A model generated the notes under the pieces. It did not search any database. It was not told the DNA's origin and was given only the letters and a program-made list of their open reading frames with translations. From a virus, in the IMG/VR virus record IMGVR_UViG_3300044522_001063, positions 1 to 30,416 of that record: DNA of 30,416 nucleotides; one strand, 5' to 3'. This document shows positions 2,727 through 23,700 of the stretch, in pieces (position 1 is the stretch's first letter; each line of letters opens with the position of its first letter). A program made the translations under genes and the position numbers.

Positions 2727-2885
2727 TTACTTTTCCTTTAGCTTTTTAAAGTATTTTAAAGCTAATCTAATTGCATCAGTTTTATTATCTAGATCCTGAT
2801 TTTCCCTAATCCATTCGATCAACTCTATATCCTTTTCGGTTAACCTGAATGAACTTTGCGGGTATTTCTTCTTTTCAGATTTCAT
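2727..2885 (-). CDS. Small ribbon-helix-helix-like protein, 52 aa
   Basis: A 52-codon gene. After a basic N-terminus (K-S-E-K-K-K), residues 12-16 read S-F-R-L-T, which fits the beta-strand of a ribbon-helix-helix (MetJ/Arc/CopG) DNA-binding dimer. Two predicted helices follow: E-K-D-I-E-L-I-E-W-I and K-T-D-A-I-R-L-A-L-K-Y-F. Size and layout match stand-alone phage RHH repressors. GGAG lies nine bases before the ATG, overlapping the end of the preceding gene. It is the last gene of a three-gene unit. It is a good candidate regulator of the repeated promoters nearby, which is inference. Confidence 0.7.
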   Translation of the reverse strand: MKSEKKKYPQSSFRLTEKDIELIEWIRENQDLDNKTDAIRLALKYFKKLKEK

Positions 2886-2888
2886 TGA

Positions 2889-3092
2889 TTATTCTCCATC
2901 TATTTGATTGTTGCAAATTTTATGGTGTATTCGATTTAAATCTTCGATGGTGCAACCTATCACCATTCTATTTAGTCTAGAATCTTCAGCATCAATAGAA
3001 GTTAATGATATTGCTGCTCTGATAATTTCAACTTCCCTTCTAGTTAAAGTTGATATTTTTTCAAAAGCATCTGGATTTCCAATTAAAGCCAT
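2889..3092 (-). CDS. Hypothetical protein, 67 aa
   Basis: Not recognised. Entirely helical prediction: residues 18-35 (L-T-R-R-E-V-E-I-I-R-A-A-I) look like a regulator-type helix and residues 50-62 form a second. I chose the ATG at 3092 because AAAGGGGTTT precedes it by the usual distance; an upstream in-frame ATG at 3134 lacks such a site. Three bases separate its stop from the start region of the RHH gene. Confidence 0.65.
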   Translation of the reverse strand: MALIGNPDAFEKISTLTRREVEIIRAAISLTSIDAEDSRLNRMVIGCTIEDLNRIHHKICNNQIDGE

Positions 3093-3143
3093 TTCAAACC
3101 CCTTTGTAAAAAGTAAAAAACAACACCTAAACACCTTAACCTG

Positions 3144-3347
3144 TTAGCCAACAAAACAGGTTCTATTTTGATTCCAAGGCAAAAGCATTTTAGACTTAGC
3201 CATCCAATAGCTAGTAAAAATGCAATCATCTTTGAATTCAATTTGGCTTATTGGTAACCAAACTTTTCTTTCACAAAAATCAACCTGAACAGCTTTATCT
3301 GTTCTGTTTACAATCTGGTGTTCCATTGCAATTAAGATATTTTTCAT
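3144..3347 (-). CDS. Small conserved phage-type protein, 67 aa
   Basis: The stretch N-R-T-D-K-A-V-Q-V-D-F-x-x-R-K-V-W-L-P-I-S-Q-I followed by an aromatic-rich M-A-K-S-K-M-L resembles a short domain I know from many phage early genes, where a W-x-P-x-S-Q-I core is preceded by a K-A-x-x-V strand and followed by a W-x-A-x-K motif. Its function is not established. AAAGGGG precedes the ATG. First gene of the unit from promoter P3. Confidence 0.7.
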   Translation of the reverse strand: MKNILIAMEHQIVNRTDKAVQVDFCERKVWLPISQIEFKDDCIFTSYWMAKSKMLLPWNQNRTCFVG

Positions 3348-3388
3348 TTCATTCCCCTTTGTTTTGTTTCAATCATCAACACAATATT

Positions 3389-3416
3389 AATATACAATCT
3401 GTAATTGCATTGTCAA
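3389..3416 (-). promoter_or_regulatory. Sigma-70 type promoter P3
   Basis: Minus-strand TTGACA (3411-3416), spacer of 16, TATATT (3389-3394). The -35 flanks match the other copies. The leader after the -10 instead carries a TGTTGATGATTGAA sequence shared with P4, not the GGTT hairpin of P1, P2 and P5. It drives 3347-2727. No terminator is visible between it and the gene ending at 3436, so readthrough from upstream is possible. Confidence 0.82.
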
Positions 3417-3435
3417 TACAAATTGTAAAGATTTA

Positions 3436-3795
3436 TTAGTTTATTTCTAAATTAGAATCATCCCATTCATAAGGAACAATTGTCCAACAGTCTAAATTAG
3501 TGGCTAAATTTGGATCTGGATGAACTTCAGGACACAATTGCCAAGTTAAGATTTTAACCCCCTGAATGATGATCCTATGATCTTCCATTAGGGTATAAAG
3601 GTTTATAGCTGCTCCAAGTTCTTCCCAATCTTCCGCTTCTCGATCTTCAGGTTCAATTTGAATAATTAGATTCCCGGTTATGTCCTGTAGACAATATGAG
3701 GATGGAAGCGGGAATTGCCCTGCATTGTTTGGATAATCACCCGGATCTTCCCAAATATCTAAATCAACGGATAATGTGTTTTTAAGAATCTTCAT
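3436..3795 (-). CDS. Hypothetical acidic protein, 119 aa
   Basis: Not recognised. Strongly acidic (clusters W-E-D-P-G-D and E-P-E-D-R-E-A-E-D-W-E-E), with several Trp, Cys and Pro. An acidic, DNA-mimic-like surface is conceivable, but nothing specific supports it. AAAGGGGTTT precedes the ATG. Last gene of the P4 unit; its stop lies 20 nt upstream of the P3 -35 box. Confidence 0.65.
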   Translation of the reverse strand: MKILKNTLSVDLDIWEDPGDYPNNAGQFPLPSSYCLQDITGNLIIQIEPEDREAEDWEELGAAINLYTLMEDHRIIIQGVKILTWQLCPEVHPDPNLATNLDCWTIVPYEWDDSNLEIN

Positions 3796-3820
3796 GTTAA
3801 ACCCCTTTGTAAAATGTGAA

Positions 3821-4060
3821 TTAAAACCTTTTTTTGTACTCTTGTTTTAAAGCCCTGATTGCCCTTTTTTTAGACATAATCCTTAAGTTGTTATGTCTTA
3901 TTGGGTGTTCAGATTCCAGCGAATCAATCGCTTCCTGAACGCTTTTAGTGCTGGAGCAAAACATCCAACCCAACATATCAATATCACCTTGATGCCCAAT
4001 ATACCCATAGGTATTATCATTTCTATCAATTCCATCGTGCATTCTTACAAATTCGTACAT
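3821..4060 (-). CDS. Hypothetical protein, 79 aa
   Basis: Not recognised. N-terminal half has a Gly/Asp/Asn-rich pattern (D-G-I-D-R-N-D-N-T-Y-G-Y-I-G); the C-terminal third is a basic helix (S-K-K-R-A-I-R-A-L-K-Q-E-Y-K-K-R-F), possibly nucleic-acid binding. AAAGGGGTTTAGAA precedes the ATG. Middle gene of the P4 unit. Confidence 0.65.
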   Translation of the reverse strand: MYEFVRMHDGIDRNDNTYGYIGHQGDIDMLGWMFCSSTKSVQEAIDSLESEHPIRHNNLRIMSKKRAIRALKQEYKKRF

Positions 4061-4350: not shown

Positions 4351-4379
4351 AGTATATATCCCTGTATGAACATTGTCAA
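4351..4379 (-). promoter_or_regulatory. Sigma-70 type promoter P4
   Basis: Minus-strand TTGACA (4374-4379), spacer of 17, TATACT (4351-4356). It shares the TTGACAATG box and the downstream TATTGTGTTGATGATTGAA leader with P3. It drives 4308-3436. Confidence 0.85.
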
Positions 4380-5350: not shown

Positions 5351-5569
5351 TTAGTTGCAGCTTACTGGCAACATTTCAGTTTCACGGAGAGCAAAACCAT
5401 AGTTTTCAAAAGATACAGAATAAACAAACATATCTTCGCTTTTAAACCTCCCTGTTCTAGCAGGGAAAAAAGTTGCTTCGTTAACAATGCAAACTTTACC
5501 GAAATACCAAGAATTCTTATCATTGTTAACAACCTTTTGACCAACAACAAACTTTGATACATTAGCCAT
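5351..5569 (-). CDS. Small SH3-like barrel protein, 72 aa
   Basis: The pattern F-V-V-G-Q-K-V-V-x-x-D followed by W-Y-F-G-K-V and later Y-S-V-x-F-x-x-Y-G-F resembles SH3-like/KOW-type small barrels, with a terminal E-x-E-M-L element. The function is unknown. The ATG at 5569 is chosen because AAAGGGGATTGAA precedes it directly; a longer frame back to 5614 has no ribosome-binding site and overlaps the leader hairpin. First gene after promoter P5. Confidence 0.66.
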   Translation of the reverse strand: MANVSKFVVGQKVVNNDKNSWYFGKVCIVNEATFFPARTGRFKSEDMFVYSVSFENYGFALRETEMLPVSCN

Positions 5570-5604
5570 TTCAATCCCCTTTTCAAATCGTTCACAAGTT
5601 ACCC

Positions 5605-5625
5605 GGTCAAACACTTCGTTTAACC
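5605..5625 (-). promoter_or_regulatory. 5' leader hairpin, copy 3
   Basis: On the transcribed strand GGTTAAAC pairs with GTTTGACC over a 5-nt loop: 8 pairs with one G-U at the same position as copy 1. One interior pair is swapped relative to copy 1 on both arms, a compensatory change. Same distance from the promoter as copies 1 and 2. Confidence 0.62.
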
Positions 5626-5635
5626 TTATAAGTTT

Positions 5636-5664
5636 AATATATTATGCTTGGAATACATTGTCAA
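5636..5664 (-). promoter_or_regulatory. Sigma-70 type promoter P5
   Basis: Minus-strand TTGACA (5659-5664), spacer of 17, TATATT (5636-5641). The flanks match the other four copies. It is the promoter nearest the central non-coding region and drives 5569-4420. Confidence 0.85.
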
Positions 5665-5732
5665 GACAAGTTTGGAAAGATTGTTGGTTTTGTATGAATA
5701 TATTATTTTCTATGATTTTGGGTTGTTCTTAG

Positions 5733-6110
5733 GTTGTTTACAATGATTAGGTAATCTGTAAGCTTAAAATGTTTTGGCTCAAACTGTATGAATACATTCA
5801 TTATATTGTGAAATAATGTATTATTTGGTTATTTGGTTAGTTTACATTGATTAGGTTGTTATGTTTTTGAATGGTTTTGGGAAGGTTTTGTCTCAGTTTA
5901 TATGAATAGATTAAACTTTTGAGGGTTTATCAGGTAAGGTTTTCATCCAGTTTATATGAATAGATTCATATAGAATCGTAAACAATTGGGTTGATATAGG
6001 GGAAGCTCCTGATGCAATAGGGGAAGCTTAAAGGGGGAAGCTGGATCTGTTTTAGGAAGGTTTATGTCCAGTCTATATGAATAGATTCAACTGATTGTTT
6101 ACAATTGGGG
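5733..6110. repeat. GTTTACAAT-type repeats, four copies
   Basis: GTTTACAATGATTAGGT near 5737, GTTTACATTGATTAGGT near 5840, an inverted copy GTAAACAATTGGG near 5978, and GTTTACAATTGGGG near 6097. They interleave with the palindromic boxes, often about 20-100 nt away. A second protein-binding site family is likely. Confidence 0.5.
5999..6042 (+). repeat. Three copies of GGGGAAGCT
   Basis: Exact copies at 5999-6007, 6020-6028 and 6034-6042, spaced by 21 and 14 nt, between two palindromic boxes. Function unknown. Confidence 0.7.
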
Positions 6111-6206
6111 TGTTTGTTAAGATATCCAATACACTAGGGTATTTAGGTAAGAATTATTAGGTTGAATATATTCATACAGAAGTTTAAAAAAAAATAAAAA
6201 TAAATT

Positions 6207-6307
6207 GGGTGGGGGTGGCTCGGTCAAGGGGAGGGAGGGTATCTAGTGTTAACATAGGTAAGGTAGGTGGGTGGTGGGTAATGGGGTGGGTGAGGGGGTG
6301 TAGGGGG
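6207..6307 (+). other. G-rich tract with two quadruplex-capable clusters
   Basis: First cluster 6207-6239 has runs GGG, GGGGG, GGGG, GGG, GGG; second cluster 6283-6307 has GGGG, GGG, GGGGG, GGGGG with loops of 1-4 nt. Guanines are confined to the plus strand. The tract lies directly left of the AT-only segment. A C-rich run at 6637-6653 is the counterpart on the other strand. Confidence 0.65.
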
Positions 6308-6399
6308 TATAGGTAGTGCTATATTAAAGACCTCTCTTATCCATATATATATATCCATATTCTATTATAATATTTTTTTTTTTTTATATAGAGATACTA

Positions 6400-6549
6400 T
6401 TAAGACATCCAACCTTTATTTATATTAATCTATTCAACCTCTTCTACTCTTAATATATTCAACCTATCTTTGTCTTAATATATTCAACCTACTCTACTCT
6501 TAATATATTAAATGTCCTGTACTATGAATATATTATATCTGTCCACCAA
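6400..6549. repeat. 25-bp-period iteron array, five to six units
   Basis: Units begin at 6400, 6425, 6450, 6475 and 6500, exactly 25 nt apart, with a degenerate sixth at 6525. The core is TTAATATATTCAACCT in the two best units, with small changes in the others; the 9-nt tail varies. The core is the reverse complement of the palindromic box family (AGGTTGAATATATT at 6160). Confidence 0.85.
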
Positions 6550-6669
6550 CCTTGTGTACGAGATATTAAAGACAAACTTAGGTGCTAATTCCTGGAGATT
6601 GTCGAAACCCTATTAATATTGTCGAGGAGGATTTCTCCCCCCCCTCCCCTCCCTAAAAATAATTACCAT

Positions 6670-6722
6670 TTTTCCAAATCGTCAACTTAGAATATTTTCC
6701 AATTTTCCTAAATCGTCAACTT
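6670..6722 (+). repeat. Two direct repeats AAATCGTCAACTT
   Basis: TTTTCC followed by AAATCGTCAACTT at 6670-6688, and again with one extra T at 6703-6722. They lie just upstream of the late gene block, where a late-transcription activator would bind; a related TTGTCGA sequence occurs at 6599 and 6619. Confidence 0.6.
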
Positions 6723-6730
6723 GCAAAGTA

Positions 6731-6758
6731 TTGCAAAAATAGGAATCGATGTTACTAT
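6731..6758 (+). promoter_or_regulatory. Possible late promoter
   Basis: TTGCAA (6731-6736), 16-nt spacer, TACTAT (6753-6758), each four of six to consensus, 24 nt before the first late ATG. The weak match and the paired repeats directly upstream would suit an activator-dependent promoter. Low certainty. Confidence 0.35.
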
Positions 6759-6781
6759 GTTAAAATCAAAGGAGAACAATT

Positions 6782-7081
6782 ATGCCTTCAGACTCATCAA
6801 TGGCGATTTCGCAAACGATACCGGGAACAGTAACAATTGCTGCTAGTGGGGCAAGCCACATTCACGCATTCACATTGCAGGGCGATGGAGATTGTTCGGT
6901 ACAGTTTTTTAAAGCTGATGGAACAACAGCATTAACCGGATTGATTCATATTCCTTGCTATCAAATCTTTTCGCAAGCAATGCAATCAGTAGGTTTGATT
7001 CGTAGTGATGCGGGAATTAAATTAACGGTGGTAGGTAACGCATCAGGTAGATTAAGTGGGTTTGTTACTTATAACGCATAA
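6782..7081 (+). CDS. Small structural-type protein, 99 aa
   Basis: Not recognised. Ser/Thr/Gly/Ala-rich and beta-strand dominated (residues 12-99), with a V-T-I-A-A-S-G-A-S-H-I-H segment and a final S-G-F-V-T-Y-N-A strand, as in small virion or neck proteins. AAAGGAG is well placed before the ATG. It is the first late gene, 46 nt before portal. No terminase gene lies before it. Confidence 0.65.
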   Translation: MPSDSSMAISQTIPGTVTIAASGASHIHAFTLQGDGDCSVQFFKADGTTALTGLIHIPCYQIFSQAMQSVGLIRSDAGIKLTVVGNASGRLSGFVTYNA

Positions 7082-8923: not shown

Positions 8924-10900
8924 ATGGCAAACGCATTAATTCAAAATCCTGTTGATCGAGAAAACCACATTGTTCACGGTGTGAAAGTTCTTGGATTCAC
9001 TTCTGCAAATGGAAGGATTTATGATTTTGCTGCTGTTAAGGAAGCTATTCAAAAATATGAAAAAGCTCCTGTTAACAAAGATCATAACATGGAAGAACCT
9101 TCCTTCTCTGATCGTCTAGGATGGCTTGAAAATGTGACTTTGCAAAAAGATGGGTTGTATGCCGATTTTCATTATAACCCTCATGCAGAGGGGATTGAAT
9201 CGTTTCTATGGTTCGCTGAACATAACGGTTTAGGTGATGTTGGATTTTCCCATTTAGTTTCAGGAAAGTATTCTGTTGATCCAGATGGAACGGAAAGAAT
9301 TACTAGAATTGATAAAGTTAAATCGGTTGATCTAGTTGCTAACCCTGCAACAACAAAAACAATATTTGAATCAGAAGTTAAGCCAATGGCGAATAAAGTT
9401 ATTGAAGAAGCAACTCAAGATGTAGGAACAGGTGATTCTGTTCAATACAGGGGTGGTTTTGGAACAATAAAAAACATTAAAAAATTTGATAAGGGAACAA
9501 TATATTCAATTAGAAATAGTAGGGGAAGCGAAGATACTTTAAAAATCTACGATGATGAAAATAAAAATACTCATGCGGATTGGATTTTGAAAGTTAAAAA
9601 GATTCCTAATCGAAAAGAAAAATCTCCCGCTGATCAAGGGTATGATCAAAGATCAGCATATAACGAATCAGATGAACCAGTTGTTTTTGGTTCTACTGTT
9701 ACAAAAACATTTTATGACAAGATGAAAAAACTTGCTGCTTCAGGAAGTGAAGAAGGTAAAAGGCAAGTAGCATGGATTGAAGACGAAATAAAGAAAAGCG
9801 AAAAAGAAAGAAAGATTCAAAAAGATTTGTGGGCAAAGCATCTTAAAGATAAAAAATCAAAATCTGAACAAGAGGGTAAACCAATGGATAAGAAGATTGC
9901 AAAAGAAGCTGGCAATGCAGCGAATAAAGCAAAGAAGAATGAATTGGATAGGAAGCAAGGCGAAGATTTTATGAAAAGAAATTCTTCTCTATTTAAACCT
10001 ACACCGGGGTTTCCAAATCAATTACCAGCAGATTACGATTATAAACCAGCACAAAAAGCCTTTGGAAGAAGTTTTAAAAAAGGTACATCTAAAGATGTTG
10101 GGGAAGATGATTCTGTAGATGAAGCATATAAAGACCAACCTAGTGATCCATACGAATTAGGTGTATTTCTTAGGAAACAAGGTGTAAAAAAACCTGATAA
10201 TCCTTTTGGAGATGGTATTGGTAAAACTTGGAATTCAGATCAATTTGATCGTGGATTTTCAGGAAGACCAAGAGCAATATTTAAAACTAAACCCGGTGAC
10301 CCCGGTGAACAAGAAGGAGATGATGAAATGGACAATAAGAAAATGATGGAAGAAGAAAATCCAATGCAACAAGAAGAAGCTATGCAAGAACCAATGATGG
10401 AAGAAGCAGATGATGTTTACGCAAAAGTAAAAGAAGTTTGCGAAGGGGAAGGTTCTGATGAAGAAAAATCCCAAAAGATTCTTGAAATGCTTGGCCTCTC
10501 CGGTGGTATGTCCGAAGGTGAAGGTGAACCTATGGAAGAAGCAGAAGAAGATCCAAAAGAAAAAGTTGGTTCTGAATCTGCTGTTCTTGAAGTCGATGAT
10601 GAAGAAGAAGAAGAACCCAAAAAAGAATCTAAATCGGAATTAGCTTCTTTGCGAAAATGGAAAGCTGAAAAGCTTAAGGAAGAAAAGATTGTGAATCTGA
10701 TTAAAGAATCTAATCTTGAACCAACCAAAGTATTCATCAAACAACTTTCAGCAATTGATTCTAAACTATGGAGTGAAGCAATCAACGATAGGAAGAAAGT
10801 TGCCTTAGTTAAATCTTCCGTTAAACCAATTTCATCTGGTTTGCAATCAAGAAGCGAATCCAGTTACAAACAATTTCTTGAATCCGTATTAGGTAAATAA
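8924..10900 (+). CDS. Prohead protease with fused scaffold, 658 aa
   Basis: Residues 1-150 look like an HK97-type prohead protease: K-D-H-N at 52-55 and G-F-S-H at 107-110 place a His (54) and a Ser (109) as the probable catalytic pair. K-S-V-D-L-V-A-N-P-A-T-T (133-144) is the usual end of the domain. Residues about 155-230 look like an SH3-like insert (G-D-S-V-Q-Y-R-G-G-F-G-T-I), then 230-460 is charged and low complexity. Residues 470-600 are very acidic and Met/Glu-rich, and 605-658 form a basic helix ending in K-Q-F-L-E-S-V-L-G-K, as expected of a scaffold. This architecture lets protease and scaffold be made from one gene and cleaved during maturation. An internal start (10328) may give free scaffold. 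Confidence 0.82.
   Translation: MANALIQNPVDRENHIVHGVKVLGFTSANGRIYDFAAVKEAIQKYEKAPVNKDHNMEEPSFSDRLGWLENVTLQKDGLYADFHYNPHAEGIESFLWFAEHNGLGDVGFSHLVSGKYSVDPDGTERITRIDKVKSVDLVANPATTKTIFESEVKPMANKVIEEATQDVGTGDSVQYRGGFGTIKNIKKFDKGTIYSIRNSRGSEDTLKIYDDENKNTHADWILKVKKIPNRKEKSPADQGYDQRSAYNESDEPVVFGSTVTKTFYDKMKKLAASGSEEGKRQVAWIEDEIKKSEKERKIQKDLWAKHLKDKKSKSEQEGKPMDKKIAKEAGNAANKAKKNELDRKQGEDFMKRNSSLFKPTPGFPNQLPADYDYKPAQKAFGRSFKKGTSKDVGEDDSVDEAYKDQPSDPYELGVFLRKQGVKKPDNPFGDGIGKTWNSDQFDRGFSGRPRAIFKTKPGDPGEQEGDDEMDNKKMMEEENPMQQEEAMQEPMMEEADDVYAKVKEVCEGEGSDEEKSQKILEMLGLSGGMSEGEGEPMEEAEEDPKEKVGSESAVLEVDDEEEEEPKKESKSELASLRKWKAEKLKEEKIVNLIKESNLEPTKVFIKQLSAIDSKLWSEAINDRKKVALVKSSVKPISSGLQSRSESSYKQFLESVLGK
10328..10900 (+). 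CDS. Possible internally started scaffold, 190 aa
   Basis: An in-frame ATG at 10328 is preceded by AGGAG at 10315-10319, an 8-nt gap, which is ideal. It would make a separate acidic, Glu/Met-rich, helical protein equal to the C-terminus of the protease fusion, the same trick as the lambda Nu3 scaffold nested within gene C. The rest of the parental gene has no comparable site. Function is inferred from the lambda precedent; only the start context and frame are seen. Confidence 0.55.
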   Translation: MDNKKMMEEENPMQQEEAMQEPMMEEADDVYAKVKEVCEGEGSDEEKSQKILEMLGLSGGMSEGEGEPMEEAEEDPKEKVGSESAVLEVDDEEEEEPKKESKSELASLRKWKAEKLKEEKIVNLIKESNLEPTKVFIKQLSAIDSKLWSEAINDRKKVALVKSSVKPISSGLQSRSESSYKQFLESVLGK

Positions 10901-15455: not shown

Positions 15456-17925
15456 AGATATTCCAATTGATTCCGGTTCAGATTTTACAGCAGATGTTGT
15501 AAAAGCTGTTGAAGCAATTGCCCAAAACATAAAGAATTCATCAACCGCTTTTACAGGTAATTTTGATAAAGTTTCTAATTCAATTAAGACAATGCAAAAA
15601 GCGGTTGTAACTTCTGTTAAGCAGATTAAATTAGTTGCACCAGTAAATAAAAAAGATGTTAAGAAGGAAGAAACAAAAGATTTAACATCTGAATTTTCAA
15701 GAATTGTAGACGCAATTCAGAATATAAAATTAGTTTCCCCGGTTGAAAAACAAATCAAAAAAGAACCTGAGAAAAAAAAATCAAAATCTGAAAATAAAAA
15801 AGATACTATAAAAGAAAAAGAATCTAAGGCTGTTAAACCTAAAGATCCTATAAATTATACGAAGCCAATTTCATCAGGTTTTAAATCAATCATTACAGCA
15901 ATTGCAACCTCAACAAAGCAAGTTATATCAGCAATTTCTAAAATCAAATTAGGTAAAGAACCCAAAGAATCTATTAAAGAATCTTCTGAAAAATCATCTA
16001 AAGAATCTTCCGAAAAATCATCTAAAGAATCTGTTAAAGAATCTAAAAAAGAATCTGTTAAAGAATCAATCAAGGACAAGTCTGTTAAAGAATCTAAAGA
16101 AACAATAAAGGAATCTTCTAAAGAATCTGTTAAGGAATCTAAAGATAAATCAAAAGATTATTCAAAGGAACTTTCATCAGGTTTTAAATCTGTAACAACT
16201 TCTGTAAAGGATATGACAAAAGAAATTGTTGCATCTGTTGGAAAAATAAAACTAGATGTTGGTAAACCTGAAAAATCAAAAGCAGAAAAGAAAAAAGAAA
16301 CAGAAGGTAAAGCAAATTTTGCTGAAGATATTTCTTCCGGTTTTGCTTCTATCGTTACTTCTGTTTATGAAGCATCAATACTAATTACTAATGCTGTTCT
16401 TGAAATTGGAACAGAGATTGTAAACGAATTAACAAAAACTAAAGAACAACCCAAAAAAGAATCTAAAGAAAAGTCCGGGCCTGATTACACTCCTGATTCA
16501 TCGATGGATGAAAAAGAAAAAACAGATATTAAAAAAGAAGGTTACAAAGATAAGTCTAAAAAAGAACCTAAAGCAAAAGGGATTTCTATAGCTAAAGCAG
16601 TTATTGAAATCAAGCAAGCAATTATAAATATTGGAAAAGGTAAAGAAAAAGAAAGTAAAAAAGAAAAGGAAAGTAAAAAGGAAAAGGAAAGTAAATCATC
16701 AGTATCTTCTATAATTCCTGATTTAAAAAAAGCTTTTAGTTCTTTAATAAATAAAATTCCCGGTGCATCACAAATATCAAAAGGTGGTTTAGTTGGAGAA
16801 AAATTTTCAGGATTAAAAACTGTTGGTGCTGCTGTTGGTGGTTCTGTTGGTAGTGCTGTTGGTGGTGCTGCAAGTAGCGTAGCAAGTAAAGCTGCATCAG
16901 GTTTAGGAATGGCTTTAAATTCTGTAACTGGTTCAGTTGCTATTGCTTCAGGTGCAATTGGAATGTTTGGTTCATACATTGAAAAATCTAACCCCGCATT
17001 GATGGAACAATTTGGAATTATTCTAAATGATTTAGGTGGTGTAATTGGTCGATCTCTTGCACCAGTAATTCAAACACTATTGCCATTGTTTCGCCAATTT
17101 GCTGATTACATTGATTATGCAATGAAGTTAATTCAACCTTCCATTAATGTTGTAATTAACGCATTTAAAGCATTAGCCGGGCCTCTAATGGAAGCGGGTG
17201 CAACAATTTTAAAAGTGTTTGCCCCTGTATTAGTTTTTGCAGCAAAAATTCTTGAAGGTTTAGTTATTGTTGTTACTCCTTTGATTGATGCTTTTGCAGA
17301 ATTTATTGAAATAATTGGCGAAATGTTTGCAGCATTTTTTGATGGTATTGGCATAACTGAAATTATGATGAATGGCTTTAAATTAATGGCAGACGGTGTA
17401 AAGATTTTGGTAGGTGCGATAGGTTGGGCAGCGGGTGCATTTTACCAAGTAGTAGGTGCAGCAATAAAAGGAATTGGGTTTCTAATCAGCAAGATTCCGT
17501 TAACAGGTGATCTTGGAAAAACCTTGATGAAAATGGGCGATGATGCTGATAAAGCGGGAGAAAAATTAAGAAATTCCGGTGCTGATATGATTTCATCAGG
17601 GTTAACAGGTAAGGAAAGAGAAAAAAAACCCTCTAAAATTAAAAAAGATGCTTCTGTTGGTGCAGCGGTTCGTGAAGCTCAAGAGGTTTCAATCTCAGGT
17701 ATTGGCGATGATATCCGTAAATCGGCAATGATGGCAGGGCAAGGGCAAAAAACACAAGAAGAAGCTTTGAATGATATTAGTAAAAATCTAGAAAAGAACA
17801 ATCTTGCAGCAGCAGTTGCACAGGGAATGATTGAAGCACAATCAAAAATTGGAGATAAACCACAAGGATTTACAAACGATACTGATTATTCTGGTTCAGG
17901 TGGTTCTTTTGAAGCACCATCATAA
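15448..17925 (+). CDS. Tape measure protein, 825 aa
   Basis: Sets tail length and later forms the DNA channel into the host. Residues about 75-240 are Lys/Glu/Ser-rich, with dozens of K-E-S triplets. Four or more related segments S-S-G-F-x-S-I (about 76, 141, 241, 295) each followed by a hydrophobic helix and K-I-K-L are interspersed. Residues about 445-690 are hydrophobic, with likely membrane-inserting helices, as in other tape measures. The ATG at 15448 overlaps the chaperone stop; a TTG at 15415 would add eleven residues and lacks support. No lysozyme or peptidase domain is recognisable inside it. At 1.5 angstrom per residue, the tail would be about 120 nm long if fully helical. Confidence 0.87.
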   Translation: MAKDIPIDSGSDFTADVVKAVEAIAQNIKNSSTAFTGNFDKVSNSIKTMQKAVVTSVKQIKLVAPVNKKDVKKEETKDLTSEFSRIVDAIQNIKLVSPVEKQIKKEPEKKKSKSENKKDTIKEKESKAVKPKDPINYTKPISSGFKSIITAIATSTKQVISAISKIKLGKEPKESIKESSEKSSKESSEKSSKESVKESKKESVKESIKDKSVKESKETIKESSKESVKESKDKSKDYSKELSSGFKSVTTSVKDMTKEIVASVGKIKLDVGKPEKSKAEKKKETEGKANFAEDISSGFASIVTSVYEASILITNAVLEIGTEIVNELTKTKEQPKKESKEKSGPDYTPDSSMDEKEKTDIKKEGYKDKSKKEPKAKGISIAKAVIEIKQAIINIGKGKEKESKKEKESKKEKESKSSVSSIIPDLKKAFSSLINKIPGASQISKGGLVGEKFSGLKTVGAAVGGSVGSAVGGAASSVASKAASGLGMALNSVTGSVAIASGAIGMFGSYIEKSNPALMEQFGIILNDLGGVIGRSLAPVIQTLLPLFRQFADYIDYAMKLIQPSINVVINAFKALAGPLMEAGATILKVFAPVLVFAAKILEGLVIVVTPLIDAFAEFIEIIGEMFAAFFDGIGITEIMMNGFKLMADGVKILVGAIGWAAGAFYQVVGAAIKGIGFLISKIPLTGDLGKTLMKMGDDADKAGEKLRNSGADMISSGLTGKEREKKPSKIKKDASVGAAVREAQEVSISGIGDDIRKSAMMAGQGQKTQEEALNDISKNLEKNNLAAAVAQGMIEAQSKIGDKPQGFTNDTDYSGSGGSFEAPS

Positions 17926-20753: not shown

Positions 20754-23700
20754 TGAGTTTAACGATAAATAGTTATTCTGGTGGAACTATATCAGGATCT
20801 GGAACATTTGCAGATCCTTATTCAATTGAAATGAATTATTATAGTTTTAGTGCTTCTTTTAGTTATTCTGAAAACGGAACCATATTTTATGAATTTAGTG
20901 GTGAAGGATCACCTTATTACGATAACTCCGTAGAACCACCTGTTTATCATGGTGGATATGCTCTTTTTGTTCAAAATTTAAATTATGTTTGGAATGATGA
21001 TTTACCTTTTACTGGGTTTCCTTCTGGTCTTTCTAACAGCGACAATTTTAGCGTAGACATTACTAATGTAAACCCAGTTGTTTTTGACATAAGTGCTTAC
21101 CCAGAATCAGGAACATATGTTTGGGATAATACTACAGTTAGTCTTTCTGTATGGTTTGTTTCAGATGTCCAAATTCCTACTGCATTAATAGTTGATGTTC
21201 AACCAGCGGGAGTTGTTTCTGGTGATCCATTTACAACTCAACCAACAATTAAAATAGTAGATCAAGATGGAAATTTAATTCCAACAGCAACAGATGATGT
21301 TGATGTTTCAATCAATGTAGTAACTGGATCTGGGTCATTAACAGGAACTACGACAATAACCGCTGTTGATGGGTATGCAACTTTTACTGATTTAGTTGTT
21401 ACTGGTTATGGTTCATTTTATCTAACATTTTCATCAGGTACATTGACTTCTGTAAATTCTGATACATTGTTTTTTACTCCTGATGCTGGAAATCCTAATC
21501 CCCCAATTCCAGTTAAACCAAAAAGATCATATATACCCTCATCAGTTCCAACTTCTGGTGATATGGAAACTAATGAATTTGCAATAAATGTTGCAGATAA
21601 AAAAGGATATGTTCGTGATTCAAACGGTATTGTTCATCAGGTTTTTGATGGCAATGCTAGTGGTTCTGGAACAGTTACTTCTGTTGGATTGTCTTCCACT
21701 AATTCAACATTAACAATTTCTAATTCCCCTGTTACAACTTCTGGAACAATTAAAATTGATTTATCAAAAACTAGTGTATCTGCAAAAGCTTATACCAATG
21801 CAGATATTACAGTTGATGCTTATGGAAGAATTACTGCTGCTTCAGATGGTGCTGTTGGTGTAACTTCAATTATTGCTGGGACTGGTGTTAGCGTAGATAC
21901 TGCAACAGGTGATGTTACTGTAACCAATTCTTTGCCTGACCAAACTGTTTCATTAACTAATGGAACAGCAATTTCTGTAACAGGAACTTACCCTGATTTT
22001 ACTATTACTAATGATGCACCAGACCAAATTGTTACATTGACTGATGGAACAGCAATTTCTGTAACAGGTACATATCCTGATTTTACTATTACTAACTCTT
22101 TACCTGATCAAACTGTTACCTTAACTGAAGGTACAGATATAACCATTACTGGAACATATCCAGATTTTACCATTGGTTATTCTGGAGTTGCTAGTGGTGT
22201 TACATCTATTATTGCTGGAACAGGCATTAGCGTAGATGTTACAACAGGCGATGTTACTGTTACTAATTCTTTGCCAGATCAAACAGTTACATTGACAAAT
22301 GGTACAGCGATTTCTGTAACAGGAACTTACCCTGATTTTACTATTACTAATGATTCTCCAGATCAAACAGTTTCATTAACCAACGGAACGGCAATTTCTA
22401 TAACAGGTACATATCCAGACTTTACTATTACCAATGATGCTCCTGATCAAATTGTTTCGATCACCTCTGGAACTGGCATTAATGCTACTGGAATTTATCC
22501 TGACTTTACGATTGATTCAACCATAACTCAATACACGGATTCAGATGCAAGATTAGCATTATCCGCTGGTACTGGCATAAGTTACGATAATGCAACAGGA
22601 ATTATTACAAATTCAGAACCAGATCAAATAGTTGCGTTAACTGGTGGAACAGATATATCTGTAACAGGAACATATCCTGATTTTACAATTGATTTTGATG
22701 GGAACACAAGTTATCTGCCGTTAAGCGGTGGAACTATGACAGGTTCAATTACAAGTTTTGGTACAACGCATGATACTGAAGTTTCTGGTGATTTCTTTGG
22801 TGTTCAATTATCTGCTGATCACACACAAGGAACAATGATAAACTTTGATGGTCTTGATACCTATTCTGGTTCAAGCCACATGAAAGTAATTCCAACTGGT
22901 TTAACTTTTCCTGATGCAACTACTCAAACTACTGCTTACACAGGTGGTGCTGGTGTTTCTTCAATTATTGCTGGAACTGGAATATCAGTAGATGCTGCAA
23001 CAGGTGATGTAACTATAACTAATGAAGCTCCTGATCAAACAGTTTCTTTGACTGATGGAACAGGTATTTCTGTTACAGGAACATACCCAGATTTTACCAT
23101 TGCAACAACGATTACCCAATATACAAATTCTGATGCAAGATTATCCTTATCTGCTGGAACTGGAATTTCCTACGATAATGCAACAGGGATTATTACAAAT
23201 TCTGCTCCCGATCAGACTGTTTCGTTAACTGAAGGAACAGATATAACCATTACTGGTACATATCCAGATTTCACTATTGCTTATTCTGGTTCTTCAGGTG
23301 GTGTAACTTCTATTACTGCTGGTACAGGTATTAGTGTAGATGTAACAACAGGTGCTGTTACTGTTACCAATTCTGAACCTGATCAAACTGTTACATTAAC
23401 TGCCGGAACTTCCATTTCAATCACAGGAACTTATCCTGATTTTACAATCGGATATACAGGATCTAATCTTTCTGAAGCTGAAAACCTGATTGCAGAAGTT
23501 TATAACAATTCTGGTGCAACATTAACTAAAGGAACAATTGTTTACATCAATGGTGGTCATGGAAACCTTCCGACAGTTGCAAAAGCTTTGGCAACTAGTG
23601 ATGCAACTTCAGCACAGACTTTTGGAATTGTTCGTACAAATATAACAAATAATAACAATGGTTATTTAATCATAGTTGGAAATCTAATTGATTTAGATAC

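Follow-up and report, generated by a model that had tools for sequence, protein, structure and literature searches.

Between the two gene blocks of this phage lies a gene-free stretch with an array of regularly spaced repeats, and the question is whether these repeats mark the place where replication starts or the place where a repressor binds. The DNA analysed, called the window here, is the stretch of 30,416 nt from position 1 to 30,416 of IMG/VR record IMGVR_UViG_3300044522_001063, which belongs to an uncultured phage; all coordinates refer to the window. A preliminary description had given the array the layout of either a theta-type origin or a cooperative repressor cluster. We predict that 5615-6781 serves as replication origin and control region and that its repeats are iteron-like sites for a protein, and we put the probability of this reading at roughly one half.

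Genomic setting

5615-6781, unstranded: non-coding control region, flanked by leftward small genes on one side and rightward structural genes on the other
5636-5664, minus strand: candidate leftward promoter TTGACA-17-TATATT, 11 of 12 consensus positions, with related copies upstream of other leftward genes
6782-7081, plus strand: 99-aa gene of no assigned function, first of the structural run, conserved in relatives

The control region contains no ORF of at least 50 aa in the ORF listing of the window. The small genes to its left run leftward and have strong sigma-70-like promoters, and to its right are the rightward structural genes (the 99-aa gene, the portal gene and the capsid run). A 44,248-bp contig, G001, matches the left 9.1 kb of the window at 99.97% and also carries the capsid gene of the window. 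The gap measures 1167 bp in G001, and it is the longest gap in all six of the larger genomes examined (G001 and five relatives). Named phages and plasmids gave no DNA match, and at the protein level they gave only a remote portal match and remote primase matches. Since no close phage was found in the named collection searched, the replication of this group is, as far as the searched collections show, unstudied. Searches for known RNA families and tRNAs found none, and the capsid protein had no relative among the genome contigs searched.

Several repeats occur elsewhere in the window. A strong promoter resembling TTGACA-16/17-TATATT recurs on the minus strand at 1808-1836, 2148-2176, 2628-2656, 3389-3416, 4351-4379 and 5636-5664; these copies precede leftward small genes, and most of them sit in related intergenic repeats of about 60-120 bp. 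In the structural run, an 836-aa protein contains an in-frame 24-nt tandem repeat of the KESSKES type and a 1482-aa protein contains in-frame tandem repeats of 84 and 339 nt, the repeats of the two genes lying at 15964-16141 and 21856-22514.

The 25-nt array and the palindromic boxes

6400-6536, unstranded: array of six sites 25 nt apart (6400, 6425, 6450, 6475, 6500, 6525), from lag identity
5695-5706, plus strand: left box TGAATATATTAT, from the box search, as are the next four
5789-5800, plus strand: left palindromic box TGAATACATTCA
5903-5914, plus strand: left box TGAATAGATTAA
5957-5968, plus strand: left palindromic box TGAATAGATTCA
6078-6089, plus strand: left palindromic box TGAATAGATTCA, second copy
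6163-6174, plus strand: left perfect palindrome TGAATATATTCA, which has AGGTTGAATATATT in common with the array

The 25-nt array is real. Identity at a lag of 25 over 6395-6549 was 0.70, compared with 0.325 +/- 0.041 in dinucleotide shuffles (z 9.2; 0 of 2000 shuffles), and the highest value that 2000 shuffles gave at any lag from 10 to 60 was 0.55. At lags of 50 and 75 the identity within the array was 0.70 and 0.61. Together with the lack of ORFs, these values confirm the periodicity in a gene-free region that had been noticed from the sequence. The exact 25-nt steps hold at all six sites, but the ranking of the sites as five units and a weaker sixth does not: read by eye against the core TTAATATATTCAACCT, the sites at 6450 and 6475 have no mismatch, that at 6425 has one, those at 6400 and 6500 have three and that at 6525 has four, so the array is more accurately described as having three strong units (6425, 6450, 6475) and three weak ones (6400, 6500, 6525). 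In relative L010 the array cores match those of the window at 71 of 72 positions (99%), the whole array is 95% identical and the 99-aa gene is 68% identical. The 9-nt tails, which had been called variable beside a conserved core, are not free to vary, being pyrimidine-rich and sharing in this 95% conservation.

The left boxes are near-palindromes (TGAAT-N2-ATTCA) with a variable central base, while in the array sites ATTCA is retained as one half and the second half, TTAAT, is weaker. As had been proposed, the core and a left box are reverse complements, exactly so for the box at 6158-6172 (15 of 15 positions). When the 30,416-bp window was searched for TGAATANATTNA, matches without a mismatch were found only between 5789 and 6486; allowing at most one mismatch gave 22 matches against 10.1 expected, 18 of which lie between 5695 and 6536. 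The boxes are essentially confined to this region. A second repeat family, TTGTTTACAAT followed by GATTAGG or TGGG, is found among the left boxes at 5733-5754, 5837-5858, 5975-5993 and 6094-6112, and at 5999-6042 GGGGAAGCT or a near variant occurs three times in about 45 bp.

Helix stability

6338-6393, unstranded: AT tract, candidate unwinding element, within the least stable 200 bp of the genome

Nearest-neighbour energies place the weakest 200 bp of the 44-kb G001 exactly at window positions 6338-6537, that is, at the AT tract plus the array. With 200-bp windows the stability minimum is at this locus in 8/8 records (G001, G003, G004, G006, G007, G008, G010 and G011); with other window sizes it is not at the locus for G004 (100 bp) nor for G001 and G004 (300 bp). 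Because the records are related, the agreement in stability and in gap length is one lineage's property seen repeatedly and not independent evidence. The tract at 6341-6390 had been described as AT-only, which has to be corrected, as it contains five C (6341, 6342, 6355, 6356 and 6362) and the AT-only run covers about 6363-6390. Two features of iteron origins, tandem direct repeats of one sequence and an adjacent AT-rich region of low helical stability, are present here.

Comparison with relatives

6206-6312, plus strand: G-rich block with several G-runs, from the sequence
6609-6620, plus strand: invariant element CCTATTAATATT, which contains CCTATTAAT, from comparison across relatives
6637-6653, plus strand: C-run CCCCCCCCTCCCCTCCC
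6663-6730, plus strand: two tandem 34-nt repeats with AAATCGTCAACTT, CGTCAA being kept in relatives
6731-6758, plus strand: weak late promoter TTGCAA-16-TACTAT, read from the sequence and below the promoter-scan threshold; most relatives have an aligned promoter-like sequence

Relatives share a constant frame made up of a G-run (in most), the AT tract, lineage-specific repeats, the invariant CCTATTAAT with a C-run following about 28 nt from its start, and the late promoter. CCTATTAAT was found in all 21 distinct upstream regions at a near-fixed place (-175 to -213 from the 99-aa gene); counted from its start, the C-run begins 27-30 nt downstream in 8/8 records. The 12-mer CCTATTAATNTT has one copy each in eight of the nine records searched, G006 reading CCTATTAATATC there; the 9-mer CCTATTAAT has one extra same-strand copy in G001, G003 and G006. 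G-runs of at least 5 lie upstream of CCTATTAAT in G001, G003, G006, G007, G008 and G010.

The expected conservation of the 25-nt spacing is seen in the closest relatives only. The period is 25 nt in L008, L009 and L010 (one 26-nt step), but it is 26 nt in L011/L012 and in G004/G005, and the array is absent in the more distant relatives examined, where palindromes or other repeats, such as those of 43 nt in L055 and L024, occupy the same place. L010 also encodes, at 3019-4056 on its minus strand, a 345-aa protein that by eye is DNA cytosine methyltransferase-like and lies beside the ribbon-helix-helix gene; the window is without it there.

Replication genes and candidate binding proteins

2727-2885, minus strand: 52-aa ribbon-helix-helix-like protein, candidate box binder, from phrog_876 and fold rows

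G001 encodes a replication module comprising a primase-polymerase (Prim-Pol), an SF2 helicase, SSB-like DUF669 proteins and a 266-aa Sak4-like ATPase. The distance from the control region leftward to these genes is about 8-14 kb, the primase-polymerase gene being about 12 kb away, with the large terminase gene beyond them (about 14 kb away); the Prim-Pol gene abuts the terminase gene with zero gap. The Prim-Pol is 70-99% conserved among relatives, and in the structure model its C-terminal residues 728-813 resemble winged-helix domains, this end and a few short stretches being the exceptions in a model of otherwise low confidence (mean pLDDT 37).

We consider this winged-helix end and the 52-aa protein to be candidate binders of the region. 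Support for a ribbon-helix-helix identity of the latter is weak: it matches phrog_876 (E 4e-4), with Pfam RHH_1 below the cut-off; the helices of its model fit a ribbon-helix-helix fold, and the fold rows include NikR, ParD and Arc at Z 3.5-5. The box-bearing G001, G003 and G004 encode the protein, a search of G006-G008 did not find it, and a scan for ribbon-helix-helix proteins gave matches only in close phages. A close copy is present in L119, a fragment that need not extend to the boxes. In G004, where the box shifts towards TAAAT/ATTTA, the protein is 43% identical and has changed N-terminal strand residues. Many other early genes share its presence pattern, so covariation with the boxes does not single it out. 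An HTH-like reading of a 121-aa protein (855-1220) was dropped for want of family support. A second ribbon-helix-helix-like protein of 65 aa, widely conserved and weakly Arc-like (phrog_582), is encoded before the exonuclease gene (33908-34105, plus strand, in oriented G001; 10144-10341, minus strand, in L085).

Origin or operator

If the region is an origin, the targets of a phage-encoded protein would be the palindromic boxes (TGAAT-N2-ATTCA) and the half-degenerate sites of the 25-nt array. Once assembled on the array, the nucleoprotein complex would assist in melting the AT tract next to it, where the primase-helicase encoded by the phage would load. A more specific form, which we regard as unlikely, is an origin in two layers: an invariant core (CCTATTAAT and the C-run at fixed spacing) could be read by the winged-helix end of the Prim-Pol, and an adjoining, interchangeable, lineage-specific iteron array by a fast-evolving phage protein.

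Several properties of textbook origins were looked for and count against that form. In G004 and G006 the cumulative GC skew reaches its lowest point close to the 99-aa gene; however, the GC3 skew of plus-strand genes is equal or higher on the left arm than on the right in six of six genomes, and once gene direction was controlled no arm effect remained in these genomes. The skew therefore follows transcription and marks no origin, and we rejected it as origin evidence, so that the proposed check by a skew minimum at the array gave no support. DnaA boxes are not enriched in the window and are fewer than expected by chance (23 found, 50 expected); the control region has no exact box, and a single site with one mismatch lies at 6337. 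The repeats are out of helical phase, 25 nt (26 in G004) being about 2.4 turns, and the neighbouring genes (5351-5614 and 6782-7081) have no match to a Rep initiator. As first proposed, the layout fits an origin or a repressor cluster, with its phase-locked direct repeats, the weakest helix of the genome and the longest non-coding gap; of the checks proposed with it, the skew gave no support and the spacing held only in the closest relatives.

The most serious alternative, possible but in our view less probable than an origin, is a cooperative operator cluster, in which a phage regulator, perhaps the 52-aa protein, would act on the palindromes and the array to control divergent promoters while replication starts elsewhere. 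The region does lie between divergent transcription units, with the leftward promoter at one end and the weak late promoter at the other, and the distribution of the 52-aa protein, including its divergence in G004 with the altered box, is what a box-reading regulator might show, although this presence pattern is common to many early genes. The coordinates fit such a cluster less well. Operators that overlap or abut the promoters they regulate were not found: neither promoter is overlapped by a box, the closest left box lies upstream of the leftward -35 at a distance of about 30 bp, about 195 bp separate the end of the array from the late -35, and the remaining leftward promoters have no box. 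An origin is favoured over an operator by the low helix stability, the invariant core and the distance from box to promoter, but only weakly.

Two other functions seem improbable. The C-run and CCTATTAAT could mark a cos or pac packaging start or genome end, given that CCTATTAAT is an invariant element with one place per genome and that many contigs of the group end within the control region (L009, L024, L032, L036, L054, L064, L066, L075 and L076, at their starts). These ends, however, are scattered (among those listed, between 104 and 320 nt to the left of CCTATTAAT), fall in low-complexity DNA and are thus probably assembly breaks, three circular-looking contigs (127-bp end overlaps) run through the region, and the large terminase gene is distant, so a packaging site is quite unlikely. 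Less likely still, indeed very improbable, is a centromere-like partition site of a plasmid prophage. Plasmid centromere layouts combine repeats with a ribbon-helix-helix protein, which is the likeness seen here, but the proteins scanned included no recognisable NTPase of the ParA or ParM type, and the 266-aa ATPase is Sak4-like.

Comparison with known origins

An origin at 5615-6781 would be a candidate origin, with exact coordinates, for phages that have their own primase-polymerase, and it would join a constant core to changing repeats. In phage lambda and in plasmids the iterons adjoin an AT-rich opening region, and plasmid iterons are generally in helical phase (PMC5043065). Like the theta-plasmid iteron origins of P1, F, RK2 and R6K, the region has direct repeats beside an AT-rich, weak-helix tract and an array with a half-site in common with nearby inverted repeats; unlike them, it has no adjacent Rep gene, no DnaA boxes, a spacing out of helical phase, and palindromes spread over 0.5 kb. 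With ori lambda it shares repeated initiator sites beside an AT-rich region (40 bp in lambda), but the lambda iterons are inside the initiator gene O, whereas here the sites lie in non-coding DNA and no gene resembling O was found.

The PLE satellite of Vibrio cholerae has three semi-palindromic iterons of about 30 bp in a non-coding region (PMC8263062). These resemble the sites described here in their symmetry, non-coding location and lineage specificity, although PLE has a RepA_N initiator and none was recognised here. The primase-polymerase replicon pRN1 includes a repressor gene, and its candidate origin is a stem-loop (PMC4234260). This stem-loop is downstream of the replication gene, where the phage has its terminase gene, but both replicons have a primase-polymerase with a helicase and a repressor gene, putative in the phage.
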